Positions 6,758-59,346 of a stretch of 64,000 nt of DNA are shown here, in pieces. How positions within the stretch are numbered: position 1 is the stretch's first letter; the number at the start of each line of letters is the position of its first letter. The DNA is taken from contig JANXTY010000016.1 in NCBI GenBank assembly GCA_025352145.1, positions 1 through 64,000 on the forward strand. The letters run 5' to 3'. This DNA is from Oxalobacteraceae bacterium (GTDB lineage: Bacteria; Pseudomonadota; Gammaproteobacteria; Burkholderiales; Burkholderiaceae_D). Made by a program: the position numbers and the translations under genes. The notes under the pieces are model-generated. The model was not told where the DNA came from. It did no database searches and was given only the letters and a program-made list of their open reading frames with translations.

Positions 6758-7696
6758 TTACCGTGTCGTAAACGACCATGCACGGGTAACCAGAATGCCA
6801 TTCGCCGTTCCGATAAAATTCACATCATAGGTCGTGTGCGAGGTCAGTGGTTGGATCGGAACAATGGCCACAGCACTATTAAAGTCATCATAAATGAAGG
6901 ACGTGACTGCCAAGATGCCTCCCCCACGTGGGGCAACTGAAAAAGTGCTTGCCGTTAAACTGGCATTGATATTGGCATGCACACTAATAGGAAACCCCAC
7001 CTCGTTATGACCGGCAACTGGATCCGGTGATTCCTGATCACTAAGAAAATTAGGCTGTACGTTAGTTTGATTCGCAAAGGGGTAGGTTACGACATTACCA
7101 ACACCCGAAAGGCCTGCGGCATAGCCATTGGTAGCGCCCAAATTCGTAGTGAAATAGACCAAGCCATTACTTGCGGTCGCGCTAGCCGAACCAGCATCAC
7201 GGTACGATGGCTGCAAGATAAGGAAACGATGGCCGACTGCTGTCATCAAAGCATCCGCCATATAGAACCCTGAGCTACTATTGATAGAAGAAATCACTTC
7301 GCCAACAACATAGGGCGATACCAAAACATATCCGGCGGCTCTCATTCGATCTGCTACTGACGTGCCTGTAAAACCCGATTTTCCAAGAACTTCCTCATGG
7401 GTGGTGGTGTCATTGGTTTTTTGGTAATCAGAATGTTTTTGCGCAGCAGTTTGGAGATAAACGTTAGAAACCAAAGGCGCTAATCCTATCTGCCCACGGC
7501 GGTAATTAAACCAATTAAAACCGTCAGTGGCGATATTGTTGCTAACAACCGGCGCGCCCGGCTCGGCAGCAAGCTGGGTCGGTGTCGCTGCCTGTGACCC
7601 AGAGGTATCCTCCCCATTATGACCGCCGCAGGCAGATAAGATGAAAGAAGCCCCCAATGCCAAAAGCAACGTGTTCCAACGTAAAGTACCGCGCAT
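6758..7696 (-). CDS. CAP/SCP-domain lipoprotein with C-terminal Ig-like domain
   Basis: A 312-residue exported protein. The ATG at 7696 is preferred over one 36 bases upstream because AAAGGG precedes it and the product then starts with a classic lipoprotein signal: a hydrophobic run ending in LSAC, with Cys23 as the lipidation site. Residues about 50-200 resemble the CAP (SCP/PR-1) superfamily, with paired His-containing segments (AAQKHSDY and TTHEE) as in YkwD-type bacterial CAP proteins. The C-terminal ~85 residues look like an SbsA-type Ig-like domain ending in the typical AWSFTT. Bacterial CAP proteins are envelope-associated and mostly of unknown function. The protein lies downstream of the bufferin operon on the same strand but after a 190-base gap, so it may be transcribed separately. 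Confidence 0.8.
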   Translation of the reverse strand: MRGTLRWNTLLLALGASFILSACGGHNGEDTSGSQAATPTQLAAEPGAPVVSNNIATDGFNWFNYRRGQIGLAPLVSNVYLQTAAQKHSDYQKTNDTTTHEEVLGKSGFTGTSVADRMRAAGYVLVSPYVVGEVISSINSSSGFYMADALMTAVGHRFLILQPSYRDAGSASATASNGLVYFTTNLGATNGYAAGLSGVGNVVTYPFANQTNVQPNFLSDQESPDPVAGHNEVGFPISVHANINASLTASTFSVAPRGGGILAVTSFIYDDFNSAVAIVPIQPLTSHTTYDVNFIGTANGILVTRAWSFTTR

Positions 7697-7890
7697 GGCA
7701 ACCCTTTTGTTTTGAAAAGAAATAAACGTCAATATACCCCGCCTTGGCTATGATAGACCACTCCTATTCAGTCGGAACGGCTGTCAATTGAGCGGACATT
7801 GGAGATCTCCGCCTATAACAGCATGTAAGCCTCCATTTCCAGCTACGGCCCCAAACCAAATTGCTACGGTATTACAAAACAAAGCTCACG

Positions 7891-8682
7891 CTACCATTGA
7901 ATCCGTGTCAGCACCGCGTCACCAAGCCAACTTTGCAGCCATCCGGCGATTTTGGGGGTGATATCTTCCTCACGCGCGCTAATGGATGCTTCTTCACAAA
8001 CTGCAGAAAAACGCCGGCCTTGCTGCAAGCCGCTCAAGGCCAATGCTTCGTAGGTATCAAGCGAGCGGAAATGGGGTTGCAATTGTTTGCGCCAAACCAA
8101 CCAGGAGGGGGACAATGGCGTGGCGATTTCTGTAGCCTCAGGCGGGATTTGTTTTTGCTCTAAGGCCAGCCAAATGGCAACCACGTTCCATTGCAAAGAC
8201 AGAATACGTAGTGAGGGATGCAACGCCAACGAGAGTCGTTCCCACTGCTCGGGCGTTAGTATGCGCAATTCGTCGGCACTCAATAAAGGGGCATCGTCGG
8301 CATCAAATGCCAAGCCCAAAGTCCATTCAAACGTAGCCAATTCTGCCACGCAGGGATGATCGTTCAGTGCCCCTTTTAAATAAGCGGGAAAACCGTCGCC
8401 ATACCAACGAAGGTTTCGCGATTGGGAAGGGGTGGCTTGTATGTAGCCATCGGACAACTCGGCAAATAAATCATCCCCAAGATAGCTATGCGTTTTTTCG
8501 AATGCTTCCCCCAAAGCTTCTCGCAAGCGCGCGCGGTAAGCGTTGTGGTAAATCGCCAGCCGGTCGCCCGCATTGAGGCCATGTTGCTGAGCAATGAATT
8601 GCACAATCGCGGGCGTTTCGGAATGCGGCGCAAGGACGTATTCTTGGAAATCGGTCTGGATGTTTTGCAGAGAAAGCTTCAT
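7891..8682 (-). CDS. bufC: BufC-type (DUF2063) partner of the bufferin-modifying enzyme
   Basis: A 263-residue protein of the DUF2063 family, recognised by its N-terminal half (residues about 5-100, including [15 protein letters not shown] and the YLGDD / [11 protein letters not shown] region), which forms the putative DNA-binding-like fold named for the family. Such proteins bind the leader of the precursor peptide and present it to the MNIO enzyme encoded next door. The ATG at 8682 is chosen because it overlaps the stop of bufB as ATGA and has GAGGGGG before it; a longer frame extending upstream into bufB is not needed. It is the last gene of the bufA-bufB-bufC operon. No DoxX-type membrane protein (often found in these operons) follows. 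Confidence 0.88.
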
Positions 8683-9524
8683 GCTGCTTGCCCCCTCAGA
8701 ACCTGGCTGGCAATTCGGCGCGCCTGTTGCAATTCGACGATCAATTCCGATAAAGGCGGAATATGGTCGTCCCGTTCGATCATGGTAGCCACCGGGCCAA
8801 AGCGCTGCAACGCATCGGCATACAACGCCCACACTGGATCGGCGATCGGATGGTCGTGGGTGTCAACGATATAGTCTCCGTGATCGCTGTGCCCTGCCAA
8901 ATGAATTTGCTGGACCCGATCGGCGGGAATACCCTGCAGATATTGTTGCGGATCGAAACCATGGTTGACACTGCTGACATAGATGTTGTTAACGTCGAGC
9001 AGAATCAAGCTATCCGACTCGTGCGCCACTGCCGTGATAAATTCCCATTCACTCAAACTATCGCAGGTAAATGAAACGTAGCTGGAAACGTTTTCCATTA
9101 ACAGCGGGCGCTCCAGATAATCTTGGACGCGACGAATATTACGGGCCACTTGCTTGACGGCTTCTTCTGTGTACGGCAAGGGGAACAAATCATGCAGATT
9201 GCGCCCATGCACGCCAGTCCAGCACAGGTGGTCCGACACCCAAAGCGGCTCTACGCGCCGCATTAATTTTTTTAAGTCTTTTAGATAAGCGTCAGATGGG
9301 CCCTCGGGCGTACCAATCGACATCGATACCCCATGCATGACTACGGGATACTCCTCGCAAATTCGATCCAGCATGGATAGTGGTTTGCCGCCAGGCACCA
9401 TGTAATTTTCGGACAAAATTTCGAACCAGTCGACCGCGCACGGGGCCGCCAGAATTTCATGGTAATGATCGGTACGCAGTCCAAGACCGAAACCCGGCGA
9501 AGCAATTAAAGAGGGTACAGGCAT
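8679..9524 (-). CDS. bufB: BufB: MNIO (DUF692) multinuclear iron oxidative enzyme
   Basis: A 281-residue TIM-barrel enzyme of the DUF692/MNIO family (relatives: MbnB, TglH). The hallmark segments appear in order: [65 protein letters not shown] and ERDDHIP. The His, Asp and Glu residues in these strands are the family's ligands for the iron cluster. MNIO enzymes oxidise cysteine residues of ribosomally made peptides; in bufferins they create thiooxazole-type rings that bind copper. Here the substrate is the Cys-rich peptide encoded just upstream, with BufC as partner protein. The match to the family is complete and no key segment is missing. Confidence 0.94.
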
Positions 9525-9577
9525 CGGGCGTTCCTCTATGAAATCGGACGTCGGAAATAAACAATAAAAGTGGGCAA

Positions 9578-9612
9578 AAAAATTGCCGGGGGCGACAAGG
9601 CACTCCCGGCAA
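9578..9612 (-). terminator. Terminator-like hairpin between bufA and bufB
   Basis: On the transcribed (minus) strand, ATTGCCGGG (9612-9604) pairs perfectly with CCCGGCAAT (9590-9582) around a 14-base loop and is followed at once by a run of T residues. This is the form of a Rho-independent terminator, yet it lies inside the operon. It probably lets most transcripts end after bufA, so that the peptide is made in excess over its modifying enzymes. The structure is seen directly; partial read-through is inferred. Confidence 0.8.
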
Positions 9613-9626
9613 TCCGTCGTTCTTGA

Positions 9627-9893
9627 TTACTTAGCGCTAGCGACCTTGCCGCCTTTTTTTGAGCATTCCTCTTTAGAAGCTTTAACAAAGCCGTGACCTT
9701 TGCAAACGTTTTTACCCTTGCAAGCATTTTCAGCTGTTTTGCAATCGCTGGTACCTTTGCAGCTATTGATGCCTGTGCAATGCACAGTATCGGCAGCAAC
9801 CGCTGCGGTGTCTGCGGCAACAACCGAACCAGACAAAGCCATTGCAGCGGCAGCGGCAGCGATCAAAGCACCTGTTTTAAATGTTTGTTTCAT
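9627..9893 (-). CDS. bufA: BufA2-like bufferin precursor peptide (copper-binding RiPP)
   Basis: An 88-residue secreted precursor. Residues 1-26 form a Sec signal peptide (KQTFKTGALIAAAAAAMAL, cleavage near VVAA). The mature part carries six cysteines at 39, 45, 51, 58, 64 and 77 in the repeating pattern CTGINSCKG, DCK, ACKG, VCKG and later EECSKKGG. This CKG-repeat pattern resembles the second bufferin class (BufA2) rather than the DUF2282 class. After cysteine modification by BufB/BufC in the cytoplasm, such peptides are exported to the periplasm, where they chelate and buffer copper. GGAGA precedes the ATG. A short TAAG tetranucleotide repeat lies in the leader near 9914-9926. No obvious metal-regulator gene is adjacent, so regulation is unknown. 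Confidence 0.9.
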   Translation of the reverse strand: MKQTFKTGALIAAAAAAMALSGSVVAADTAAVAADTVHCTGINSCKGTSDCKTAENACKGKNVCKGHGFVKASKEECSKKGGKVASAK

Positions 9894-10020: not shown

Positions 10021-10230
10021 CTACAACGATTTATGCGTTCTCACAAGATTGCAAGTTGGATTAAAGACACGATGCCTTGAGCCCCCTTTGCCCTGTATAC
10101 GACAACACCAGCGCTGCGGATGAAGCGTGGTCAAGTAGGTTTGGCCTGGTTTCACCGCGTCGATGTAAGCATCGGTCGGGGCCACCCGCCGATACTTACA
10201 CTTGATATGAAAATATTTTTGTCGAGGCAT
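10021..10230 (-). CDS. Small hypothetical protein (doubtful)
   Basis: A possible 69-residue basic protein, starting MPRQKYFHIKCKYRR, with a weak ribosome-binding site (AGGT) upstream. Four cysteines (11, 42, 43, 60) are scattered without a clear metal-site pattern. I recognise no family. It sits alone in the gap between the bufferin operon and the rightward 82-residue gene. Its composition (many Arg, His, Cys) is also what a chance frame would give, so it may not be a gene. Confidence 0.3.
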   Translation of the reverse strand: MPRQKYFHIKCKYRRVAPTDAYIDAVKPGQTYLTTLHPQRWCCRIQGKGGSRHRVFNPTCNLVRTHKSL

Positions 10231-10603: not shown

Positions 10604-11653
10604 TCAGCGCTTGCCTCTGCTGCAATCCGTTTCCAGCCGCCGTTTATACCGCACCGATGACCACAGCGAAGCCAGAATGAACACTACGCCGACCAAACCC
10701 GTAAAAATTTCCGGGATGTGAAACTTGATGCTCGCCAGCATGATGATGGCAAGAATGCCGATTGCGTAATGCGCACCATGCTCCAAAAAAACAAATTCAT
10801 CCAGTGTACCCTTACGTAACAGATAGACAGTAATGGACCGCACAAACACAGCACCAATGGCAAGGCCCAGCATGATGATGACAATATCTTTGGTGATGGC
10901 AAACGCACCGATCACACCGTCGAATGAAAATGAAGCATCAAGCACCTCAAGGTAAAGAAAGCCTGCGATGCCGCCCCTCGCTACTTTGCCTACGCCGGGA
11001 TCAGCCTCATCTTTTTCGAGCAGGTTGCTGATAACATCAACGCCCATGTAAATCAATATGCCCCACAGGCCAGCCACCAGTACTGCAAATTTCTTTTGTT
11101 CCCCGACCAAAGACAAGCAAGCCAGCAAAGTGGCGAGGGTCAGCATCAAAGAGAGCGAGGTGACTTTCCCGAAGGAGGCGATTTTCTTTTCCACATTGCC
11201 GAGCCAGTGCAAGCGCTTGTTTTCGTCCAATAAGAAATTAAGGAATACCAACAGCAAAAAGACCCCACCGAAAGACGCCACTTCCGCATGATGATTGGTC
11301 AGATGAAGTGCATAGTCATCTGGATAGTCTATCGCCATATTCCATACTTCGAGCATGTCGATATCAGCTGCTTGCGCAACAATTACCAGCGGGAACAAAA
11401 GGCGCATGCCAAACACAGCAACCAGCATGCCGACCGTCATGAACAAGCCTTGCCAAAATTTATCCCAATTTTTTAAGGTGGATGCATTGACGACCGCGTT
11501 GTCGAAAGAAAGTGATACTTCCATGATGGCAAGAACCGATGCGAGCGCGACGGCTTGAAGCGCCCCCATCAAACCTGCTCGGCTATATCCCCACCAAGCG
11601 GCAAGACATAGGCATAGAAACGCAATAAAAAAAGAACCGCGAAAATGACGCAT
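10604..11653 (-). CDS. DUF475 / TerC-like integral membrane protein
   Basis: A 349-residue inner-membrane protein with about eight to nine hydrophobic segments. Two repeated TerC-type signatures stand out: EVSLSFDNAVVNA near residue 45 and LDASFSFDGVIGAFAIT near 240, each with acidic residues inside membrane helices. DUF475 proteins are relatives of the TerC tellurite-resistance and manganese-exporter family, so metal-ion transport or export is the best guess; the substrate is not determined by sequence. It is convergent with the 82-residue gene and is probably a single-gene unit with its promoter in the 11654-11905 gap. Confidence 0.85.
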   Translation of the reverse strand: MRHFRGSFFIAFLCLCLAAWWGYSRAGLMGALQAVALASVLAIMEVSLSFDNAVVNASTLKNWDKFWQGLFMTVGMLVAVFGMRLLFPLVIVAQAADIDMLEVWNMAIDYPDDYALHLTNHHAEVASFGGVFLLLVFLNFLLDENKRLHWLGNVEKKIASFGKVTSLSLMLTLATLLACLSLVGEQKKFAVLVAGLWGILIYMGVDVISNLLEKDEADPGVGKVARGGIAGFLYLEVLDASFSFDGVIGAFAITKDIVIIMLGLAIGAVFVRSITVYLLRKGTLDEFVFLEHGAHYAIGILAIIMLASIKFHIPEIFTGLVGVVFILASLWSSVRYKRRLETDCSRGKR

Positions 11654-41051: not shown

Positions 41052-43388
41052 ATGCTCCAAATTTCTCGTTGTGCATTGGCTTTTACGTTAGCACTGATAA
41101 GTGTTTCAGCTGCATCGCAAGAGACAACTAATAAAACAGTCCAACCGGATCAGACGTCAAATATTGGAGAGTTGCCATTAATCGGAATGGCTCCGTCCGC
41201 GAGCAAGGGGAAAATTAGCAATATTGATTCCGTCGCGACCGATACCAGCACAACTACTAAGGGCGTGGCCCTTGCCAGTAAAGATGTTCAGCAGCAGCAA
41301 ACTGCGACTCAAAATGGGAAAGTAGTATCCGCATATGGCGGTGCACCAAATGAGCTTCAGGCATTTTTACAAGAGGCGACAGGAAAGGTGCTACCAATAT
41401 TTGGCGCCGAGTTTTTTATTAATACTCCATCAACTTTTGCGCCAATACTCAACTCGCCAATTCCATCTGCCTACCTACTGGGGCCGGGCGATGAAATTTT
41501 GATCCGTGGCTGGGGCACCATTGACATAAATTATCGCGCTACTATTGACCGCAACGGGCTCATTACAATCCCACAAATTGGTACAGTGTTGCTCGGCGGT
41601 GTGAAAGCAGGCGATGCCGAAAGTGTGGTTCGCGGGGCAATAGAAAAGTTTTATAAAGGTGTAACCGTCAACGTTACCTTTGGACAATTGCGGGCTATAA
41701 CTATCTATGTTGTAGGTCAGGCCAGCAGGCCTGGCACGTACACTGTGTCGAGTTTGTCGACATTGATAACGGCATTATTTGCCAGTGGTGGCCCCAATGC
41801 CAACGGCAGCATGCGTCGGGTGCAAGTCAAGCGCACGGGTAAAGTGGTTGCTGAATTGGACTTGTATGCATTTATTACTAAGGGGGATAATTCGGCCGAC
41901 ATCAAGCTGCAAGACGGGGATACCATTTATATACCGTCGGCTGGTGGCTATGTTGCCTTGACTGGCAAGGTTAACAGTCCTGCTATTTATGAAGTGCGTA
42001 CGGCCAAAGACACCATTGAATCTATCCTTGATTTTGCGGGCGGTTTGCCAATTATTGCTGACCCGCGCCGTGCTTTTCTTGAGCGCATCGATCCCAAGGA
42101 GCGTAATCCACGTAGTGTCGAACAGTTTGCATTGAATGCGGAGGGCCTAAAAAAGACATTGAAAAATGGCGATCTCATCAACATCACATCGATCACGCCT
42201 AATTTCTCCAATGCGGTTGTACTTCGTGGCAATGTCGACCAACCTATTCGTGCCCCGTTTAAAGCCGGTATGCGGATCAGTGATTTAATTCCCAATCGTG
42301 AATACCTGATTACACGAAGCTCAATTCAGCGCCAAAACAATACTATTGGCACCGGAGATGGAACGACGACAGGCAGTATAGCGTCGCGCATAGGTGGATT
42401 GATTGATGAAATTAATTGGGACTATGCAGTTGTGGAACGTGTCAATCGGGCAGATCTGACGGTTAGTTTGATTCCTTTTAATCTGGGCAAGGTATTCGAA
42501 AGCGCAGCCAATCCTGACAATGTTGAGCTTCAGGCCGGCGATACAGTGACGATTTTTTCGCAAAATGATGTAGCCGTGCCGATCAATAAACGCCGGGTAT
42601 TTGTGCGTATTGAGGGAGAAGTTAATGTGCCGGGCGTGTATCAGATGGCCCCGGGTGAAAATCTGCAGATGCTGCTGGCTAAAGCTGGTGGCCCCACCCA
42701 AAATGCTTATCTGTTTGGTACGGCCTTTTATCGCGAGCAAGTTCGTCTGGAGCAGCAAGCCAATCTGGAAAAAGTGATCGACCGCTTAGAGTCCCAGTTG
42801 AGATTAGAACAGGCAAAAGGTGTTGTTGATATTCGCGGGCAATCGCAGGGTGAAGTGCAGATCGCCGAAATGAAACACCAAGCAGAATTGCTTGCTGCGC
42901 ACGAAACCATTTTACGCATGCGCAAGTTAGGTGCAACCGGCCGCGTGTCCTTTGGACTTGATCCGGCAGAACGTTCGTTTAATAAGTTGCCGCCGTTGAA
43001 ATTGGAAAATGCCGACCGCCTGGTTGTCCCCTTCCGTCCGGAGTTCGTGCATATTTTTGGCGCAGTCAATACAGAGGCATCGCTCCTTTGGCGTCCAGGC
43101 AAAGTGGTGGGCGCCTACATAGAAAAGGCGGGAATGCGTCAGGAGGCTGATGTAGATAACTTGTTTATCATCAGAGCTGACGGCTCTGTTGTATCCGAAG
43201 GTGGACGGGGTTGGTCGTTTAGAAGCCCACTTAACATTGAGGTGCAGCCTGGCGACAGCATTGTGATTCCTGAAAAGAATTTCGTAAGGGAAAGTGCTTG
43301 GTCTAAATTCACCAATGGCACCAAAGAATGGGCGCAGATACTTGCCAACTTTGGGTTGGGTGCGGCTGCTCTTAAAGTATTAAAGTAA
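41052..43388 (+). CDS. SLBB-domain polysaccharide export protein (Wza/OPX family)
   Basis: A 778-residue outer-membrane polysaccharide export protein. Residues 1-22 form a signal peptide (LAFTLALISVSAAS). The export (PES) domain begins at AYLLGPGDEILIRGWG near residue 140. Several SLBB domains follow, recognisable by VVGQASRPGTYTVSS, LTGKVNSPAIYEV, IEGEVNVPGVYQM and the final segment IFGAVNTEASLLW, ending in a C-terminal hydrophobic segment. A charged coiled-coil insert (about 570-625) is unusual for Wza and marks the long OPX subtype. No lipobox Cys is present. It opens the polysaccharide operon and pairs with the Wzz-like protein next. The ATG lacks a clear ribosome-binding site. Confidence 0.88.
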   Translation: MLQISRCALAFTLALISVSAASQETTNKTVQPDQTSNIGELPLIGMAPSASKGKISNIDSVATDTSTTTKGVALASKDVQQQQTATQNGKVVSAYGGAPNELQAFLQEATGKVLPIFGAEFFINTPSTFAPILNSPIPSAYLLGPGDEILIRGWGTIDINYRATIDRNGLITIPQIGTVLLGGVKAGDAESVVRGAIEKFYKGVTVNVTFGQLRAITIYVVGQASRPGTYTVSSLSTLITALFASGGPNANGSMRRVQVKRTGKVVAELDLYAFITKGDNSADIKLQDGDTIYIPSAGGYVALTGKVNSPAIYEVRTAKDTIESILDFAGGLPIIADPRRAFLERIDPKERNPRSVEQFALNAEGLKKTLKNGDLINITSITPNFSNAVVLRGNVDQPIRAPFKAGMRISDLIPNREYLITRSSIQRQNNTIGTGDGTTTGSIASRIGGLIDEINWDYAVVERVNRADLTVSLIPFNLGKVFESAANPDNVELQAGDTVTIFSQNDVAVPINKRRVFVRIEGEVNVPGVYQMAPGENLQMLLAKAGGPTQNAYLFGTAFYREQVRLEQQANLEKVIDRLESQLRLEQAKGVVDIRGQSQGEVQIAEMKHQAELLAAHETILRMRKLGATGRVSFGLDPAERSFNKLPPLKLENADRLVVPFRPEFVHIFGAVNTEASLLWRPGKVVGAYIEKAGMRQEADVDNLFIIRADGSVVSEGGRGWSFRSPLNIEVQPGDSIVIPEKNFVRESAWSKFTNGTKEWAQILANFGLGAAALKVLK

Positions 43389-43479
43389 GCTAAGGGTGTG
43401 CGCTGCACATCATGCGTGTACGGTATGGCCGTGCCAATCGCGGCTCATCAATAGAAAACGACTGAATTGACAATTACGT

Positions 43480-44679
43480 ATGGGTGAATCACAAATAGTA
43501 CGGCCTGCTGTGGAGGAAAATATAGAGGTGGATGAATTGGAGTTGATTGATATTTTGCTTATCCTAGCAAAACGCAAAAAGCTGATTTTCTTTTTCCCTT
43601 TGGTAGTCGCAGCGCTTACCGCTGGATTAACCCTTATTTTTCCAAATGTGTACAAGGCCAGCGTAAAGTTGCTTCCACCTCAACAGTCGCAGTCTGGTGC
43701 TGCGGCCATGATGGCGCAGCTTGGGGGCTTTGCAGGAGCTGCAGCCAGTGCCGCTGGTATAAAAAATCCAAGTGACTTGTATATGGGAATGCTGAGGAGC
43801 CGTACGATTGCTGAGAAAATAATTGCTAAATATGACCTAAAAAAAGTCTATGCGACAGACTCTTTAGAGTATGCCATTAAGACCTTGGCAGGTAATACAG
43901 TTATTGCTACAGGTAAAGACGGGATTATTGCAATTGATGTTGAGGATGAAGATAAGCACCTTGTTCCAAAGCTCGCAAACGCATACGCGGATGAATTGCT
44001 TAAATTAACAAATGTCATTTTAGCAACTGAGGCGTCTCAGAAAAGGATATTTTTTGAGCAACAGTTAGTGCTGGCTAAGGATAAATTGGCCGATGCAGAA
44101 ATTGCTTTGAAAGGCGGCTTAGAAAAAAACGGTGTCATTAGTGTCGATGGGGAAAGCCGTACGATCTTGGAAATTGTAAGTCGTTTAAGATCCAAAATTG
44201 CACTAAAGGAAATACAATTAAATGCGATGCGTGCATTTGTGACACCGAACAATCAAGAATTTAAACGAACAGAAGAGGAATTAGGCAGTTTGCGAGGAGA
44301 GCTCTTAAAGCTAGAAAATGGCCGCTCGGAGCTTGTGTCGCCAATTAGTAGCAAAAAAGTTGGTTTGGAGAGCATTAAGATTGTGCGAGAAGTGAAGTAT
44401 CGAGAAATGCTCTATGAATTGTTGGCTAGGCAATATGAGGCAGCACGTCTTGAGGAAGCCAAGGACACATCTATTATTCAGGTGTTGGATTTCGCTGTGG
44501 AACCGGAGCGCAAATCTAAACCAAAGCGTTTAATCATTGCTCTATTGGCAGCATTCTTCACTTTTTTTATTTCACTTGGGTGGGCGTTTCTTTCTGATAT
44601 GCGTGAGAGGGCACTCGTTTCCTCCGTGAGTATGGCTAAATGGGATAAGTTAAGATTGATGCTAGGTTTTAGGAATTAA
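43480..44679 (+). CDS. Wzz-type polysaccharide chain-length / co-polymerase protein
   Basis: A 399-residue inner-membrane protein with two membrane helices (FFFPLVVAALTAGLTLIF near residue 35-55 and LIIALLAAFFTFFISLGWAF near 365-385) flanking a large periplasmic coiled-coil domain: the Wzz (polysaccharide co-polymerase) build. The proline-rich segment before the second helix is short (VEPERKSKPKR). There is no tyrosine-kinase domain at the C-terminus, so it is a class-1 type co-polymerase rather than a Wzc-type kinase. It controls chain length together with the Wzy polymerase at 58.1 kb. Confidence 0.88.
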   Translation: MGESQIVRPAVEENIEVDELELIDILLILAKRKKLIFFFPLVVAALTAGLTLIFPNVYKASVKLLPPQQSQSGAAAMMAQLGGFAGAAASAAGIKNPSDLYMGMLRSRTIAEKIIAKYDLKKVYATDSLEYAIKTLAGNTVIATGKDGIIAIDVEDEDKHLVPKLANAYADELLKLTNVILATEASQKRIFFEQQLVLAKDKLADAEIALKGGLEKNGVISVDGESRTILEIVSRLRSKIALKEIQLNAMRAFVTPNNQEFKRTEEELGSLRGELLKLENGRSELVSPISSKKVGLESIKIVREVKYREMLYELLARQYEAARLEEAKDTSIIQVLDFAVEPERKSKPKRLIIALLAAFFTFFISLGWAFLSDMRERALVSSVSMAKWDKLRLMLGFRN

Positions 44680-44894
44680 TGCCAGGTGTAACATCATCGC
44701 TGTTTCAATGGCAAGATCGGCATAGAGAGCCTGACGCCCCAAGCGTCATTTGCCGTTTGTCGCTCGCCCCATCATTCGCTACAGCCTCATTCGAGTTGGC
44801 GCGTCAGAAATTTGGGGATATCAACAAGCAAAAGAAGGCCTAGCCCCTGTTACTCACCGCACACAATGCTATTAAAACAGAAGAGAACTAACCC

Positions 44895-46277
44895 ATGAAC
44901 ATCACCATCATCGGCACCGGTTATGTAGGTCTTGTCACCGGCGCCTGCCTAGCCGACTTGGGCAACAATATATTTTGCCTCGACGTGGACCAGGCTAAGA
45001 TTGACCTGCTCAACAGCGGCGGCGTGCCAATTTATGAGCCCGGCCTGAAAGAAGTGATTGAGCGAAATGTGGAAGCTGGCCGCCTGGCCTTCTCCACCGA
45101 CGTAGCCGCCAGCGTAGCTCACGGCAGCGTGCAGTTCGTCGCTGTAGGTACTCCTCCTGATGAAGACGGTAGCACCGACCTTCAATACGTGTTGGCCGCC
45201 GCCCGCAACATCGGTCGCTATATGACCGAACCCAAGGTGGTGGTCGACAAATCTACAGTGCCCGTGGGCACCGCCGACAAGGTCAGCGTCGTTATCCATC
45301 AAGAACTCGCACAGCGCGGCCAGCCAGACCTCGCTTTTTCAGTCGTCAGCAACCCCGAATTCCTTAAAGAAGGCGCCGCCGTAGAAGACTTCACCCGCCC
45401 CGACCGTATTGTGCTAGGCGTGGCCGACGACGCTGCTGGCCAGCAGGCCCTAGCTACCATGCGCCAGCTCTACGCTCCCTTTAACCGCAATCACGAGCGC
45501 ACCCGCGTCATGGACGTAAAAAGCGCCGAATTTACCAAATACGCCGCCAACGCCATGCTGGCCACCCGTATCAGTTTCATGAACGAGCTAGCCAACCTGG
45601 CCGAGCAGGTTGGGGCCGACATCGAACTGGTGCGCCAAGGCATAGGCTCAGACCCCCGCATTGGTTACAGCTTTCTGTATGCCGGCACCGGCTACGGCGG
45701 CAGCTGCTTTCCCAAAGACGTACAGGCCCTGATCCGCACCGGGCGCGAGCATGGCCAAACCCTGCGCATGCTGGAAGCCGTAGAGGCCGTCAACCATAAT
45801 CAGAAACAGGCGCTGGTGCAAAAGATATTTGCCCGTTATGGCCGCGACCTGAAGGGTAAAACTTTTGCGCTGTGGGGTTTGGCCTTCAAGCCCAACACCA
45901 ACGATATGCGCGATGCACCCAGCCGCGTGGTCATTAACGCACTGCTACGTGCCGGTGCGAATATTGTGGCGCACGACCCTGTGGCCATTACGGAAGCGCG
46001 TCGTGTGCTGGCAATCGATCTGGTCGACGCACCAGCCTATCTGGAGCGCATCCGGTTTGTGGCTCAGTCCGTGGAAGCTGCGCAGGGTGCGGATGCACTG
46101 ATCATTGTGACCGAGTGGAAAGATTACCTTTGTCCAAACTGGACTGCGCTGAAGGCTGGAATGAAAGCGTTCATGATCTTTGATGGGCGTAATTTGTATG
46201 AACCAGCAGCAGTGGCAGAGGCTGGTTTTCATTACTCGGCTATTGGCAGATCAACGAAACGATGGGAATTATCATGA
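44895..46277 (+). CDS. ugd: UDP-glucose 6-dehydrogenase
   Basis: A 460-residue NAD-dependent enzyme converting UDP-glucose to UDP-glucuronate in two oxidations. NAD site [15 protein letters not shown], then the VGTPPDEDG and [10 protein letters not shown] segments, [12 protein letters not shown], and the catalytic Cys in [14 protein letters not shown]. These match Ugd rather than UDP-N-acetylglucosamine dehydrogenase (WbpA/WecC type), though specificity is not proven by motif. Its codons are distinctly richer in C/G than those of the next genes, like the SDR and transferase genes at 59.3-60.8 kb. It overlaps the following oxidoreductase by four bases. Confidence 0.93.
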
Positions 46278-47347
46278 CAAATAAATCAGTTCTTAGCTTT
46301 GCCCTTGTTGGTTGTGGTCGTATAGCCAAGCGTCATTCGGAATTGTTAGGTCATCAACAAATCAAAAATGCGCGAATGACAGCTGTGTGTGACCTAGTGG
46401 AAAATAAGGCCCAAAACATTGGGGTCGAATTTGGTGTGCCTTATTTCACAGATATGCATCAAATGATGCAGCAGTCAAATATAGATGTTGTAGTTGTTTT
46501 GACTGAAACCGGATACCACGCAAAACATGTCATTGAACTGGCATCTTATGGGAAACATATTGTTGTTGAAAAGCCGATGGCTTTAACACTAGACGATGCA
46601 GATGCAATGATCCAAGCATGCGATGCGGCCAATATTAAGCTCTTTATTGTCAAGCAAAATCGTTTTAATGTACCCGTCGTGAAACTGCGTGAAGCACTAA
46701 TGCAGAAACGGTTTGGCAAGTTGGTAATGGGCACGGTGAGAGTTCGCTGGTGTCGGCAGCAATCTTATTACGATCAGGCGCCATGGCGTGGGACGTGGGC
46801 ATTAGATGGTGGCGTGCTCTCTAATCAAGCAAGTCATCATGTTGACCTACTTGAGTGGATGATGGGAGATGTAGATAGCGTATTTGCCATGAGCACAACT
46901 GCCCTTGCAAATATTGAAGCAGAAGATACAGCAGTTGTTGCTCTGCGATTTAAAAATGGCGCACTTGGTGTAATTGAGGCAACAACTGCTGCGAGACCGA
47001 CTGATCTTGAAGGTTCCATCTCTGTTCTTGGTGAAGGTGGAACGGTTGAAATCGGTGGGTTTGCAGTGAATAAAATGAAAGTTTGGAACTTTGTTAAGCC
47101 CGAAGCAAACGATGAGGATGTGATGGAAAACTTTTCCGTCAACCCGCCAAGTGTCTATGGTTTCGGACACCAAGCGTACTACGAACATGTCGTTGATTGC
47201 ATTTTGAATGACAAACAGCAACTTGTGGATGGCTTTGTTGGAAGGAAAAGTCTGGAATTAATTAACGCAATTTATGAGTCAATCGAAACAGGTCGTGAGA
47301 TACCCTTGCGTTTCCGCGCACAGAAATGCCGTCTTGGGATACTCTAA
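46274..47347 (+). CDS. Gfo/Idh/MocA-family sugar-nucleotide oxidoreductase (WbpB/WlbA-like)
   Basis: A 357-residue NAD-dependent oxidoreductase. ATG 46274 overlaps the ugd stop (ATGA). The Rossmann motif is [21 protein letters not shown] carries the conserved Lys of the family, and [20 protein letters not shown] the catalytic His region. Homologues oxidise C3 of UDP-N-acetylglucosaminuronate as the first step to 2,3-diacetamido uronic acids. It is followed by an N-acetyltransferase and a PLP aminotransferase, exactly the three activities needed to turn a 3-keto sugar into a 3-acetamido sugar. Confidence 0.85.
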
Positions 47348-47814
47348 TGGGAGCACCATTATTAAAAAAATCAGGCATTGTTAATGTCAAGTTTGGTGAT
47401 AATGTTGTAGTCATTGAGCCGAGCAATATCTACGGGTGCACTATTGGCGATGGCGTCTTTATCGGGCCGTTCGTTGAAATACAAAAAAATGTGTTAATAG
47501 GTGCGCGTACAAAAATACAATCCCATGCTTTTGTTTGTGAATTGGTGCACCTTGGTGAAGATTGTTTTATCGGACACGGCGTAATGTTTATCAATGATTT
47601 ATTTGTCAATGGTGGTCCGGCATGTGGCGATAGATCATTATGGAAATCGACGCTGATTGGAAGCCATGTATCAATTGGCAGTAATGCGACTATTCTACCG
47701 GTCAACATTTGCGACAATGTGGTGATTGGCGCCGGTTCGGTTGTATTAAGAGATATTACTGAATCGGGCATTTATGCTGGGAATCCAGCAAGAAAAATTA
47801 GTGGTATTGAATGA
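47347..47814 (+). CDS. Hexapeptide-repeat sugar N-acetyltransferase (WbpD/WlbB-like)
   Basis: A 155-residue left-handed beta-helix acetyltransferase, using acetyl-CoA. The ATG shares a base with the stop of the preceding gene (TAATG). Hexapeptide repeats run from IYGCTIGDGVFIGPF to VVIGAGSVVLRDI. The segment FIGHGVMFINDLF, with the catalytic His, and the end AGNPARKISG are typical of WlbB/WbpD, which acetylate the 3-amino group of UDP-sugars. It overlaps the aminotransferase gene by four bases. Confidence 0.87.
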   Translation: MGAPLLKKSGIVNVKFGDNVVVIEPSNIYGCTIGDGVFIGPFVEIQKNVLIGARTKIQSHAFVCELVHLGEDCFIGHGVMFINDLFVNGGPACGDRSLWKSTLIGSHVSIGSNATILPVNICDNVVIGAGSVVLRDITESGIYAGNPARKISGIE

Positions 47815-48914
47815 TCAAGTTTCTTGACCTTGCGGCACAGTATCGTTCAATCAAGTCAGAAATTGATTGTGCAATACAAAATGTAATTCGTGATTCTGCA
47901 TTTATTGGCGGTAAGTATGTCCAAGAGTTTGAAAAACATTTTGCTGACCATGTAGGCGCTAAACATTGCTTAGGTGTTGGCAATGGTACCGACGCACTAG
48001 AGATTGCAATAGAGGCGGCACAACTTCCCGCAGGAAGCGAAATAATTGTCCCTGGCAACAGCTTCATTGCCAGTTCAGAGGCGGTTACAAGGTGTGGACA
48101 CAAAGTTGTTTTTGCTGACGTAGACGAAGGTTGCTATACGCTTACTCCTGAATCTGTTCGGAGTCATCTCACACCCTGCACCAAGGCGGTTGTGGCCGTT
48201 CATCTTTATGGACACCCTTGCGATATGGATCCTCTGATGGATCTAGCTCGTGAATATGGTCTATCAATTATTGAAGATTGCGCGCAGGCGCATGGTGCTG
48301 AATACAAGGGTCATCGTGTTGGTGGCATTGGACATATTGCCGCGTTTAGTTTTTATCCGGGAAAAAATCTCGGTGCCTATGGCGACGCAGGCGCAATTAC
48401 AACGCAGGATGATGACTTGGCAAAGCGCTGCAGGATGATTGCCAATCACGGGCGAATCGCCAAGTACGACCATGAATTTGAGGGGCGTAACTCTCGGCTG
48501 GACGGCCTACAAGCAGCCGTGTTAAGTGTGAAATTGCGGCATCTCGATTCATGGACAGATCATCGTATTGCTGCTGCAGAACAGTATCTCGCTGGCCTTG
48601 CTGGAGTTGGCGATCTTGTACTGCCAGTGCGTCAGGAATGGGCGAAGCAGGTCTATCACCTTTTTGTCATTCGAACCGATTTCCGCGACCAATTAAAAAG
48701 CTTCCTCGGTGATCAAGGTATCGAAGCAGGGGTTCACTACCCCATTGCCCTTCCTAAGCTCAATGCCTACCAGTACCTTGGGGTGCCAGACTTGAGCGCT
48801 TCCTACAATTGTGCGGATGCCAAGTTGCTCAGCCTGCCAATCGGTGAGCATGTTATGCCGGAAGATGTTTCGTTTGTTGTCGATCAGGTCCGTCGGTTCT
48901 TCCAACGTAACTGA
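47811..48914 (+). CDS. DegT/DnrJ/EryC1-family sugar aminotransferase (WbpE-like)
   Basis: A 367-residue PLP-dependent aminotransferase acting on a 3-keto (or 4-keto) nucleotide sugar with glutamate as donor. It begins MIKFLDLAAQYRSIK, contains GVGNGTDALEIAIEA, VHLYGHPCDM, IEDCAQAHGAEY and the PLP Lys in SFYPGKNLGAYGDAG. C-terminal GVHYPIALPKLNAY is normal. It overlaps the acetyltransferase (ATGA) and completes the oxidoreductase-acetyltransferase-aminotransferase trio, so the product is probably a 3-acetamido sugar for the polysaccharide. Confidence 0.9.
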   Translation: MIKFLDLAAQYRSIKSEIDCAIQNVIRDSAFIGGKYVQEFEKHFADHVGAKHCLGVGNGTDALEIAIEAAQLPAGSEIIVPGNSFIASSEAVTRCGHKVVFADVDEGCYTLTPESVRSHLTPCTKAVVAVHLYGHPCDMDPLMDLAREYGLSIIEDCAQAHGAEYKGHRVGGIGHIAAFSFYPGKNLGAYGDAGAITTQDDDLAKRCRMIANHGRIAKYDHEFEGRNSRLDGLQAAVLSVKLRHLDSWTDHRIAAAEQYLAGLAGVGDLVLPVRQEWAKQVYHLFVIRTDFRDQLKSFLGDQGIEAGVHYPIALPKLNAYQYLGVPDLSASYNCADAKLLSLPIGEHVMPEDVSFVVDQVRRFFQRN

Positions 48915-48977
48915 TACGCCACCCCGAAAAATTTGACTCAGAACGTCACAACATTCAACTATTACTGGGACATCAAG

Positions 48978-49685
48978 ATGATCTATATCGGCAAAAAACC
49001 AAAACAATACTACAAAAACATCTTAATGATGGTCGATCTCGGTATGCACGAACAGATTTTTGCTGAGCTATCGCAGCTGGTTCCTGTGGGCGCGACAATC
49101 CTCGATTTGGGTTGCGGGGAGGGGGCTCTTTCACAGCGACTGGTCGACAATGGATACAAGGTTTACTCGGTCGACAAGAACTCAGGGTACTTTAAGTGTG
49201 TAGGGTCGACCTTCATTGAGGTTGACTTTGATAAGCAGGGGGAGCTCAACGCTTTTATCGCGAAGCATGAGGAATCGTTCGATGCAGTGATCGGTATCGA
49301 GGTAATCGAGCATGTGGAGAACCAGTGGGAGTACATTCGGGGACTCAAGCGGATGTGCAAGACCGGCGGACACCTATTTGTTAGTACTCCCAATACTCAG
49401 TCATGGCTGAGTCGTCTACAGTTCCTTCGGACTGGAAGGTTCCACCAGTTTTCGGACCCTGATCTCGAGTATGGGCACATTTCGCCAGTGACGTTGTGGG
49501 AACTCGACGTAATACTGAAAGCATCAGGGTTATCCAAGATTAAGTCGATTGGGGTAGGCACGCTTCCTCCTTTGTACTTTACATCAGTCAAAACTATCAT
49601 TGCCAGCTTGATCGGGCTGCTGCTACGTCCATTTATGAATGGCCAGGTCGATGACTGGTGTGTCCTGTCTATATGTCGCAAATGA
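48978..49685 (+). CDS. SAM-dependent class I methyltransferase
   Basis: A 235-residue methyltransferase with SAM motif ILDLGCGEGALSQRL, motif II VYSVDKN, and the acidic motif FDAVIGIEVIEHVENQWEYIRGLKRM typical of UbiG/COQ3-like methyltransferases. ATG 48978 (GGGAC upstream) is preferred; a TTG at 48933 would add 15 residues. A C-terminal hydrophobic segment (SVKTIIASLIGLLLRPFM) may attach it to the membrane. In this context it could methylate a sugar or the growing chain; the acceptor is unknown. Confidence 0.83.
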   Translation: MIYIGKKPKQYYKNILMMVDLGMHEQIFAELSQLVPVGATILDLGCGEGALSQRLVDNGYKVYSVDKNSGYFKCVGSTFIEVDFDKQGELNAFIAKHEESFDAVIGIEVIEHVENQWEYIRGLKRMCKTGGHLFVSTPNTQSWLSRLQFLRTGRFHQFSDPDLEYGHISPVTLWELDVILKASGLSKIKSIGVGTLPPLYFTSVKTIIASLIGLLLRPFMNGQVDDWCVLSICRK

Positions 49686-50938
49686 AACAAATCTTTGTCA
49701 TCCCTTCGTGGTATCCCTCGAAGGATGATCCGGTATCTGGCATATTCGTGAAGAAGCAGGCCGAGGCTTTTTGTCAATATTCTGCGCAGTACATGCCCAT
49801 CGTTGGCTTGTGGGGTCAGTGTGACGAGAACATTCCACTAAATCACCCGAAACGCATTCCATCCTGGCTTCGTGACTATACCAGGCGACCGCAAGGTCAA
49901 TGGACTACCGAGAACGGCGTGGAGGTCGTGTCTGACCGCGTGATTTCCTGGTCACACAGACTGCCTTTCGGTGGGGCAGCTCGGCTGCTAGCCGTGACCC
50001 GCCGGAACATTCAACGGGCAATCCAACGGTTTGGTCAGATCGATTTGCTGCATGCTTATGTCTCGTATCCAGCAGGCTTTGTTGCGAGCCAAATGTCTCG
50101 AGAATTTGGCATCCCATATGTAATAACTGAGTTCATGGGGCCTTTCCCTTTCCTTGCGCACCAGCAGAAAAACGGAGAGCCGCGCACGGAAATTCGGCAA
50201 GCAATCCAAGGCAGTGCCTGCACGATCGTGTTGAGTGAATACCTGCGATGCAGATTTTCCGAACTATTACTGCCCGAGCCGACTGTTATCCCGTTTTCTG
50301 TTGATCACTCCCGTTTCTCGCCGCAGACGCGTACGCCCGACGGTATAGTTCGCATGGTCTGCTGTTGTCGACTGGTCGCGGAGAAAGGCGTATTTGAATT
50401 GATCATGAGTTTTTCGCACGCGCTGGAAACGCATCGAACGCTGCGTCTAACCTTGATTGGCAGCGGTCCGGACGAAACCGCACTGCGTGCACATGCCCGT
50501 CAATTCGGCGTTTATGAGCTGATCGATTGGAAGGGGCAGCTTGAAAACGACGCTGTTGCGGACATCATGGCCGGGTCGGATTTTTTCGTGCTACCAAGTC
50601 ACTTCGACACCTTTGGCGTGGTCTACATTGAGGCCATGGCTTGCGGACTCCCGATAATTGCCACTCGATGTGGCGGGCCGGATGGATTCATCCATGAAGC
50701 GCAAGGCATCCTTGTTGAGGTCAAGAATACCGCACAACTGACGGCGGCGATGTGTCAGATGGTCGAAGATTATGCGAACTATGATCGTCATGGGATCCGC
50801 GCTTATTCCGAAGGTTGCTTCGCAGACGCCATGGTCGTTGATTCAGTATCGAAGGTATATGACCGTGTCTTGAATATGGGTTCTAGTGTGCGTCAGCTAA
50901 AAGATAACCGGCACGAAATCAAGGCGAGGAATTTCTGA
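49682..50938 (+). CDS. Glycosyltransferase family 4 protein
   Basis: A 418-residue GT-B-fold glycosyltransferase. ATG 49682 overlaps the methyltransferase stop (ATGA). The N-terminal acceptor half starts IFVIPSWYPSKDDPVSGIFV, and the C-terminal donor half has VCCCRLVAEKGVFELI, LIGSGPDE and the E-x7-E region SHFDTFGVVYIEAMACGLPIIAT that binds the sugar nucleotide. It is cytoplasmic or peripheral and adds one sugar to the lipid-linked repeat unit. Its donor is unknown. It overlaps the next gene by one base. Confidence 0.9.
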   Translation: MKQIFVIPSWYPSKDDPVSGIFVKKQAEAFCQYSAQYMPIVGLWGQCDENIPLNHPKRIPSWLRDYTRRPQGQWTTENGVEVVSDRVISWSHRLPFGGAARLLAVTRRNIQRAIQRFGQIDLLHAYVSYPAGFVASQMSREFGIPYVITEFMGPFPFLAHQQKNGEPRTEIRQAIQGSACTIVLSEYLRCRFSELLLPEPTVIPFSVDHSRFSPQTRTPDGIVRMVCCCRLVAEKGVFELIMSFSHALETHRTLRLTLIGSGPDETALRAHARQFGVYELIDWKGQLENDAVADIMAGSDFFVLPSHFDTFGVVYIEAMACGLPIIATRCGGPDGFIHEAQGILVEVKNTAQLTAAMCQMVEDYANYDRHGIRAYSEGCFADAMVVDSVSKVYDRVLNMGSSVRQLKDNRHEIKARNF

Positions 50939-52956
50939 TGTGCGGTGTCTCCGGCTTCGTCTCCACAAACCCGCGCCCCGCGTTTCCGATACTTGGTATG
51001 ACCGACATCATCCGGCATCGTGGACCTGACGATGAGGGATTTGCGCTATTTAATAATGGCAGACAGGCACCTCTGTTGCTCGGGAATGGTGACTACATCG
51101 CTCGCTACTCAAGAAGCAGCTTGCCGTATGCTCCGTCTGCCTCAAAGGTGGAGGCACTTACAAATTCAGCCACCGTGGCGCTGGGACATCGGCGCCTAGC
51201 AATCGTTGACCTCTCAATCGCAGGGCATCAGCCGATGTGCGGCGCAGACGAACGATACTGGATCGTCTTCAACGGAGAAATATACAACCACGAAGCGCTA
51301 AGACATGATCTGGAGGACGTCGGTTATCAGTTTCGCTCAGGATCAGACACCGAGGTAATCCTCGCGGCATACGTGCATTGGGGTCGCGATTGTCTTTCCC
51401 GGCTGAACGGGATGTGGGCGTTTGCGATTTTTGATGTCCAGAACCAGGAACTATTTTTATCGCGAGACCGTTTCGGTATTAAACCGCTGTATTACTGGGT
51501 AGCGCCCGATGGTACGTTCTGCTTTGCATCTGAAATTAAACAGTTCACTCAATTTCCTGGGTGGGCGGCACACCTGAATGCAGAGCGGGCGTATGACTTC
51601 CTTGCTTGGGGCTTGACCGATCACACCGACGAAACGTTGTTCTCGCAGGTCTATCAATTGCGGCCAGGCCATTTGATGGTGCTTAATGTAGGCGGTTTTG
51701 TACCCGACAAGACCGGGCGTTTGCCGGTCACAAGGTGGTATGAACTGAGGCCACGGGAATTTGCCGGCTCCTATGAACAGGCTGCAGCCGAGTTCAAGGA
51801 GCGGTTGACGAATTCGGTCGGTCTGGAGCTACATGCTGATGTCCCAGTGGGTTCGTGTCTTTCTGGTGGTCTCGATTCTTCCTCCATTGTTTGCATTATC
51901 AATGGCCTGCTTAAGACGCAAGGTACCGTCGATTTGCAGAGAACTTTCTCAGCTGTTTCCGATGTGGCGCGTTTCGACGAGAGCAATTGGATATCAGCCG
52001 TCGTCGACGCAGTCCAAGTCAGGGATTATTATGTTGAGCCCCCACTCGACCACCTTTTCGACGAAATTACATCAATCACTTGGCACCAAGACGAGCCATT
52101 CGGTTCGACTAGCGTCTATGCACAATGGAACGTGTTCCGGCTCGCCGCCGAGAATGATGTAAAGGTTATGCTTGACGGTCAAGGGGCTGACGAGCAGTTG
52201 GCTGGATACCATGGCTACTTTGGCCCGCGGTTTGCGGGACTACTTCGTTCCGGTCGATTAAGGGAGCTATGGAAGGAGATGCAAGCTGTCAAGAGTCTCC
52301 ATGGTTACTCCGAACTGCGGTCGCTTATGTACATTGGCAATGTAATGCTTCCACATCGAATTAAGCAGAGATTACGGGCCCTAAATAACCGAAATCATGA
52401 CAGCCCCTCATGGCTAGATATTCAGAAGCTCGGCGTGTCCCCGAGCGACCCATTGCATCAACTCGGCAACTATTCGACCAACATCCGGTCAATGTCTGCC
52501 GCACAGTTGACAGCGACCAATTTGCAGATGCTCCTGCACTGGGAAGATCGCGATTCGATGGCACATTCAATCGAAGCTCGCGTACCTTTTCTGGATCATG
52601 AGCTCGTGGAGTTCGTTTTGGGGTTGCCTGATGAGTTCAAACTCCATCGGGCTGTAACAAAGCGGGTGCAACGCACGGCGATGAGTGGCATTCTCCCAGA
52701 TCGAATACGTGATCGTTTCGACAAAATGGGATTCGTAACGCCCGAAGAGACTTGGATGCTGGAACGAGCGCCGGAAATTTTCCGGCAGAGGCTCCAAACC
52801 GCAGTCGAAACTTCGCGAGGAATTCTGAACTCGAATGCCGTTGAGCTTTTTGATAACATGCTGACAGGTAAAGCAAAGTTCTCGTTTGCACCATGGAGGA
52901 TGATCAGTTTCGGCGAGTGGATGCGTAGTTTTCAAGTCGAGGTGACGCCGAGATGA
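50938..52956 (+). CDS. Asparagine-synthase-type glutamine amidotransferase (AsnB family)
   Basis: A 672-residue protein with the class-II glutaminase domain (catalytic Cys2 in MCGVSGFV, RHRGPDDEG, FNGEIYNHEAL) and the ATP-dependent synthetase domain (PPi loop LSGGLDSSSIV, later GQGADEQLAGYHGYF). It is about 110 residues longer than E. coli AsnB. Enzymes of this family inside polysaccharide loci usually amidate the carboxyl of a uronic acid on the glycan rather than make asparagine. Here Ugd and the C5-epimerase-domain protein supply uronic acids, which fits. It is coupled to both neighbours by start/stop overlaps. Confidence 0.9.
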   Translation: MCGVSGFVSTNPRPAFPILGMTDIIRHRGPDDEGFALFNNGRQAPLLLGNGDYIARYSRSSLPYAPSASKVEALTNSATVALGHRRLAIVDLSIAGHQPMCGADERYWIVFNGEIYNHEALRHDLEDVGYQFRSGSDTEVILAAYVHWGRDCLSRLNGMWAFAIFDVQNQELFLSRDRFGIKPLYYWVAPDGTFCFASEIKQFTQFPGWAAHLNAERAYDFLAWGLTDHTDETLFSQVYQLRPGHLMVLNVGGFVPDKTGRLPVTRWYELRPREFAGSYEQAAAEFKERLTNSVGLELHADVPVGSCLSGGLDSSSIVCIINGLLKTQGTVDLQRTFSAVSDVARFDESNWISAVVDAVQVRDYYVEPPLDHLFDEITSITWHQDEPFGSTSVYAQWNVFRLAAENDVKVMLDGQGADEQLAGYHGYFGPRFAGLLRSGRLRELWKEMQAVKSLHGYSELRSLMYIGNVMLPHRIKQRLRALNNRNHDSPSWLDIQKLGVSPSDPLHQLGNYSTNIRSMSAAQLTATNLQMLLHWEDRDSMAHSIEARVPFLDHELVEFVLGLPDEFKLHRAVTKRVQRTAMSGILPDRIRDRFDKMGFVTPEETWMLERAPEIFRQRLQTAVETSRGILNSNAVELFDNMLTGKAKFSFAPWRMISFGEWMRSFQVEVTPR

Positions 52957-55178: not shown

Positions 55179-55804
55179 GCACGTTTAAATTAATGATTTC
55201 CTTTGCCATGACTAATATGTACATTCCGATAAAATGGTTCCCGCTCGTGCATTTGCCGACTTCTACTGGAATTTACTGTGATAATCATTTCGTCAAACCT
55301 TCAACTCCTGCCATTGAGAACACATATTTAAGACGGATTATGCATTAGCGGGGATTCTGGTCTTGAAGGTAACTACACCATCGGGATATGATGTTTTTCG
55401 AATTTATGTTTTCAAACCGTTCTGCGGGGAATAGTTTGCCTCTTAATTACCACCTTGCTATTTTAGTCAATAGAAAGGAGCATCTTGCAAAAGTAATTTG
55501 ACCTCTTTAAAAATATCCTCCTGCCTGAGGTGGTGCATTTTGACCCGCATGGTCCCAAACAGGTCAAAATTGCTCACCGCCTCATTCGATGCGATTGGGA
55601 GGAATGGCGAATTTTATGTTCATCGAAGCATGGTTAATTTTGATGGAAATTCACTAAAACAGGCCAGTTTTGAAGTTTTTTCACCATATTTTTAGAAAAA
55701 TAGTTGTGCAAGAGGCTTTATATTAATGGCATTTTGTCATTTTTAAGAGAGTCAAGTTTAAAATCACCTTTTGCATATGCAGAATGATATCTATATAGCA
55801 ATTT
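55179..55804. other. AT-rich non-coding gap inside the polysaccharide locus with an inverted repeat
   Basis: A 626-base break in an otherwise tightly overlapping operon. I find no protein-like frame. An imperfect inverted repeat of about 20 bases (arms 55526-55545 and 55562-55584, centre TTTTGACC / GGTCAAAA) could fold into a hairpin. The rest is AT-rich, like old inserted or decayed sequence. It probably contains a promoter for the wzx-to-transferase half. No transposase is recognisable. Confidence 0.45.
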
Positions 55805-57085: not shown

Positions 57086-57112
57086 TGCCATCAAACCTTA
57101 AACGCACAACTC

Positions 57113-58078: not shown

Positions 58079-58085
58079 TAAAACC

Positions 58086-59288: not shown

Positions 59289-59346
59289 TTGCGCAGTTGA
59301 TCTATTTAGGTGAGTCGACTTTATATGTAGCGCAGGTAGCAACGCG

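Follow-up and report, generated by a model that had tools for sequence, protein, structure and literature searches.

A Buf2-type bufferin operon in an Oxalobacteraceae genome, with a candidate ECF-type promoter and a hairpin behind the precursor gene

The operon and its family

Three genes, bufA2-bufB-bufC, lie at 7891-9893 on the minus strand of the 64,000-nt window (the whole stretch of DNA that was analysed), and all three ORFs were found at the coordinates given beforehand. The first, bufA2 (9627..9893, minus strand), encodes a Buf2-type bufferin precursor of 88 aa; bufB (8679..9524, minus strand) encodes an MNIO (DUF692) enzyme of 281 aa, and bufC (7891..8682, minus strand) a partner protein of 263 aa with DUF2063 and RRE-like domains (PME type 1). 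The stop codon of bufB and the ATG start of bufC overlap as ATGA (8679-8682). The mechanical ORF for bufC begins further upstream, at 8832, and it is the ATG at 8682 that yields the 263-aa protein aligning with its relatives.

The family matches are far above chance. BufA2 scored 100.8 bits against NCBIfam NF050166 (cut-off 60; E 3.6e-29), BufB 376.3 bits against NF050167 (cut-off 310) as well as 368.6 bits against Pfam PF05114, and BufC 80.6 bits against PF09836 (DUF2063; cut-off 27.2). The sequence-only reading had named the genes BufA2-like, BufB and BufC and had described an ATGA coupling of the last two; both points were borne out, the identities by these matches together with the predicted 3DEE/TglHI fold of BufC, and the coupling by the overlap itself. 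The segment 7891-9893 is thus a Buf2-type bufferin operon (captophorin, Cys-Lys group). It is a new member of a family first reported in 2025; as a gene cluster it joins thousands of others.

The next gene upstream of bufA2 is on the opposite strand. Downstream of bufC, a gap of 158 nt (7733-7890) separates the operon from a gene on the same strand for a probable lipoprotein with a CAP domain (YkwD-like; 6758-7732, minus strand). A DUF475/TerC-family membrane protein is encoded nearby (10604-11653, minus strand). Further along the window, the ORFs scanned include polysaccharide export and biosynthesis genes at 41052-60282 on the plus strand (Poly_export/SLBB, Wzz, glycosyltransferases, asparagine-synthase-like and C5-epimerase proteins).

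The same genome holds a second bufferin operon, of the Buf1 type, on the minus strand of another contig (G000 contig C54, locus L002:176-2630). Its precursor belongs to DUF2282, MNIO and DUF2063 are fused in one protein of 568 aa, and a further product is DoxX/HvfX-like.

Precursor, enzyme and partner protein

The six cysteines of BufA2 are at positions 39, 45, 51, 58, 64 and 77, and the triplets that begin at them read, in order, CTG, CKG, CKT, CKG, CKG and CSK. Four are therefore CK sites (45, 51, 58 and 64), three of them CKG. The N-terminus is hydrophobic with an AxA-like site, and residues 1 to about 26 are probably a Sec signal peptide (VVA|ADT, placed by eye only). Alignment with BufA2 peptides, the comparison that had been suggested as a check, showed all six cysteine columns to be kept in 85-86 of 86 sequences. 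In the same alignment Lys46 and Lys59 are kept in 85 sequences, Lys65 in 75 and Lys52 in 69, while the CKG triplets at 45-47 and 58-60 are invariant among 31 aligned sequences.

Buf1 carries its modifications on the central cysteines, and its outer two are linked as a disulfide (PMC12452194). The same layout in BufA2 would make the four CK cysteines the targets of modification, with Cys39 and Cys77 probably joined by a disulfide. The predicted structure of the 88-aa precursor is poor (pLDDT 56.8), so the pairing is argued purely by analogy.

Homologues of BufB in the PDB include 3bww, TglH and MbnB. Residues His64, His99, Glu144, Asp177, His208, Asp221, His223 and Glu250, which we take to be the metal ligands from the MbnB structures, are invariant among 85 aligned MNIOs, as is Asp252, the presumed catalytic base; Asn179 is kept in 84 of the 85 and His212 in 83. 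The MNIO hallmark segments recognised in the sequence-only reading thus hold up, with metal-ligand motifs that are invariant or nearly so. The next residue, Asp253, occupies the position of Phe250 in FonB; Asp is found there in 77 of the 85 MNIOs compared, and the MNIO of the genome's own Buf1 operon has Thr. MNIOs that act on Cys-Lys substrates have Asp at this position (Gadgil et al., PMC13097082), and the four CK motifs together with Asp253 place the operon in the captophorin Cys-Lys group as that paper defines it. Since BufB retains its iron ligands and has the Asp characteristic of Cys-Lys-acting MNIOs, the four CK cysteines are likely targets, and the enzyme is predicted to convert them to 5-thiooxazoles.

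A sequence search with BufC against the PDB gave no match up to E 1. Its AlphaFold2 model (pLDDT 93.8) matched NGO1945 (3dee, E 7.3e-7) and TglHI (8hi7, E 3.7e-5) in Foldseek; a weaker match was to TbiB1, an RRE protein (5v1u, prob 0.72, E about 1). BufC is therefore predicted, from the model, to be an MNIO partner with DUF2063 and RRE-like domains and a fold like that of 3DEE. In seven related Buf2 loci (L042, L044, L061, L063, L066, L071 and L075) bufB and bufC read as a single open frame; these natural fusions, along with the fused protein of the Buf1 operon, are evidence that the two proteins act together.

Relatives of BufB are encoded in 80 loci from other genomes, and the count of gene order, likewise over 80 loci, takes in related genomes and the window itself. 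The precursor, enzyme and partner genes are adjacent on one strand in 72 of the 80, and ATGA or GTGA is found at the bufB stop in 59. A DoxX gene follows bufC in one locus of 80, in a search with one DoxX query protein that may miss distant versions. Among the copper-induced genes listed for Caulobacter, DoxX is likewise grouped with the Buf1 cluster rather than CCNA_02999-03001 (PMC8224329). Lack of an adjacent DoxX gene is thus the normal state for the Buf2 subtype. The sequence-only reading had singled out both this absence and the six-cysteine pattern. DoxX does not adjoin the operon and the six positions were exact, but both traits turn out to be typical of Buf2: six cysteines follow residue 25 in 66 of the 86 aligned sequences and occur in about 90% of Buf2 peptides in the landscape paper (PMC12452194), so that the pattern does not distinguish this precursor.

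The nearest named loci by BufB, from Rugamonas, Undibacterium, Janthinobacterium and Duganella (L003-L009), are 71-76% identical in BufB and have the same gene order as the window operon; they point to a host probably within the Oxalobacteraceae or close to them. They differ in part in the precursor, whose third cysteine is followed by Ala in L003, L005, L007 and L009, as also in Massilia (L016), and by Lys in BufA2 of the window. At this rank BufA2 is patchy: of 60 genomes of relatives, the window's own included, 7 have a match that passes the cut-off. One relative's genome (G057, contigs C26, C29, C30 and C32) is unusually bufferin-rich, as the BufA2 model matches it nine times, four times above cut-off.

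Candidate regulatory sequences

A match to an ECF-sigma-type promoter, TGTAAG-N16-CGAC, lies at 10175..10200 on the minus strand, about 307 nt upstream of bufA2; most relatives have it at about 72-171 nt. It is the single minus-strand match in the window, and the plus strand has none. The pattern TGTAAG-N16/17-CGAC was suggested by comparing upstream regions by eye. In a first count it was present at 24 distinct loci (window included), against 2 occurrences over 1.6 million positions used as controls, a contrast that is partly circular since the pattern was found by looking at those loci. In a second sample, drawn from Buf1 and BufA2 loci in whole genomes of the same order using the reported strands, the pattern was upstream of 9 of 30 Buf1 genes and 4 of 6 BufA2 genes (which may overlap the first set), against a background of 5 matches over the remaining positions of those loci, about 195,000 in all. 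The 3.48-Mb genome of the window contains six exact TGTAAG-N16-CGAC matches, one before bufA2 and one before the Buf1 gene on C54; the other four are intragenic or, within the stretch examined, precede no convincing gene start on their own strand. The reversed pattern gave 19 matches in the same genome, so that six is no excess per se and the signal lies in the placement. As judged from sequence comparison, the bufferin genes of many betaproteobacteria are enriched for this upstream pattern, which makes it a concrete candidate promoter for their operons. For the gig operon of Cupriavidus, no promoter had been identified according to PMC10304878.

The Caulobacter sigma-F sequence is GTAACC-N16-CGAA (PMC3511200). 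Eight related loci, mostly Acidovorax-like, carry exactly this sequence upstream instead, and nine more rows, mostly Bradyrhizobium, carry it with one mismatch. The exact TGTAAG-N16-CGAC sequence was absent upstream of every sigma-factor gene examined in this region. A sigma-70 scan gave no minus-strand match, the 5' leader of the operon has no unusual fold (z 0.10), and a 12-bp palindrome upstream of bufA2, TTGCAATTGCAA, is absent from the upstream stretches of relatives.

Between bufA2 and bufB, a terminator-like hairpin, GATTGCCGGGAG...CCCCCGGCAATT, followed by a T run, occupies 9581..9614 on the minus strand. Its energy is -19.3 kcal/mol with the T tract, and the 74-nt region around it has a z of -2.3. 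In the survey of relatives, the 70 nt that follow the bufA stop codon were folded for 72 loci, with 60 dinucleotide shuffles each; these loci are related to one another and do not count as independent events. In the 41 loci whose gap between the precursor and enzyme genes is at least 60 nt, z averages -3.62 and lies below -2 in 85% of them. That share is 38% for the 16 loci with gaps of 25-60 nt and 13% for the 15 with less than 25 nt, and in controls from the 41 long-gap loci it is 5% at the junction of bufB and bufC, 15% after bufC and 27% in the upstream stretch. Under a strict definition of a terminator, which demands a T run, 14 of 73 loci qualify versus 9 of 219 random windows, so termination is not established for most loci. 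It is possible that the hairpin acts as a partial terminator or as a stabiliser of the RNA end, and it offers a testable account of a possible excess of precursor over enzyme. Literature searches with the chosen terms found no clear precedent for a hairpin separating a RiPP precursor gene from its enzyme gene; in lantibiotic operons, a hairpin behind the precursor gene is known.

The main added value of the locus lies in these regulatory sequences. A tentative generalisation, to which we give slightly less than even odds, is that in many betaproteobacteria Buf1 and Buf2 form one small ECF-sigma regulon, read from TGTAAG-N16/17-CGAC and distinct from Caulobacter sigma-F, and that a hairpin conserved in position after the Buf2 precursor gene sets the precursor well above the enzyme.

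An Rfam search also returned a sub-threshold match to the Burkholderia sRNA BTH_s39 antisense to bufA2 (9763-9880, plus strand; 24.7 bits, gathering threshold 77), which is probably due to chance or to an antisense RNA of a bufA-like gene.

Proposed function and comparison with known systems

Taken whole, the best explanation of the locus is a Buf2-type bufferin operon with the following pathway (probability about 0.9), of which we infer the chemistry, the copper binding, the induction and the role of the hairpin. In response to copper or a similar stress, an envelope-stress ECF sigma factor would probably switch on the three genes, and the hairpin after bufA2 would probably hold the precursor mRNA above the enzyme mRNA. 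In the cytoplasm, BufC would hold the unmodified precursor while BufB, a multi-iron oxidative enzyme, would turn Cys45, Cys51, Cys58 and Cys64 into 5-thiooxazoles, with an expected mass loss of about 4 Da per modified cysteine as in FonA, Buf1 and C. vibrioides Buf2. The Sec pathway would then export the peptide, and excess Cu(I) would be bound in the periplasm. C. vibrioides Buf2 has the same mass loss per cysteine and absorbs at 305 nm (PMC12452194), and the Caulobacter operon CCNA_03001-03000-02999 (precursor, DUF692, DUF2063) is induced by copper and depends on sigma-F (PMC8224329, PMC3511200). By analogy with these systems, the peptide probably mops up excess copper.

The same chemistry could have its main role not in copper buffering but against a different thiophilic metal or against oxidative stress (gold, silver, mercury, cadmium or chromate). 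The related gig operons respond to gold as well as copper (PMC8224329, PMC10304878), chromate and cadmium induce Caulobacter sigma-F operons (PMC3511200), MerC-bufferin fusions are known (PMC12452194), and no copper gene was seen immediately beside the window operon. We nevertheless consider such a role unlikely, given that the characterised bufferins and captophorins bind copper and that the Caulobacter Buf2 operon is induced by it. Less probable still is that the operon is silent or redundant, with the Buf1 operon doing the job. The latter is complete and includes DoxX, and the patchy occurrence of BufA2 would fit; against this, the reading frames are intact, the metal-ligand motifs and the coupling are conserved, and the ECF-type promoter match is common to both operons. 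An oxazolin (HvfA-type EGKCG) or methanobactin-type pathway is very improbable, since BufB does match the HvfB and MbnB models but falls below their cut-offs (270.2 versus 360 and 66.9 versus 325 bits), as BufC does for HvfC (51.8 versus 142), the precursor has no EGKCG repeat, and Asp replaces Phe at the FonB-250 position. Matches to other RiPP models were likewise below cut-off.

The Buf2 operon of the window, with its probable role in copper buffering, can be set beside several known systems. The C. vibrioides Buf2 cluster (CCNA_03001-03000-02999; bufA2-bufB2-bufC2), compared by description, has the same order of precursor, MNIO and DUF2063 genes. It is under ECF control and has no DoxX among the listed induced genes, and the window operon likewise has an ECF-type match and lacks an adjacent DoxX. 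The promoters differ, GTAACC-N16-CGAA for sigma-F in Caulobacter and TGTAAG-N16-CGAC here, and an NrsF anti-sigma gene (PF06532) was not found in the window's genome. The metal-induced gigPABT operon of Cupriavidus metallidurans, of the Buf1 type, shares the set of precursor, MNIO and DUF2063 genes, but its precursor has four cysteines and it includes a DoxX-like gene (gigT), whereas the window operon has six cysteines and no DoxX alongside. Fontiphorin, oxazolin and gonophorin, the Lys-Cys captophorins, also come from pathways in which an MNIO and a DUF2063 partner install 5-thiooxazoles, the product predicted here; they are marked by EGKCG repeats and by an enzyme with Phe, in contrast to the Cys-Lys motifs and Asp253 of the window operon.
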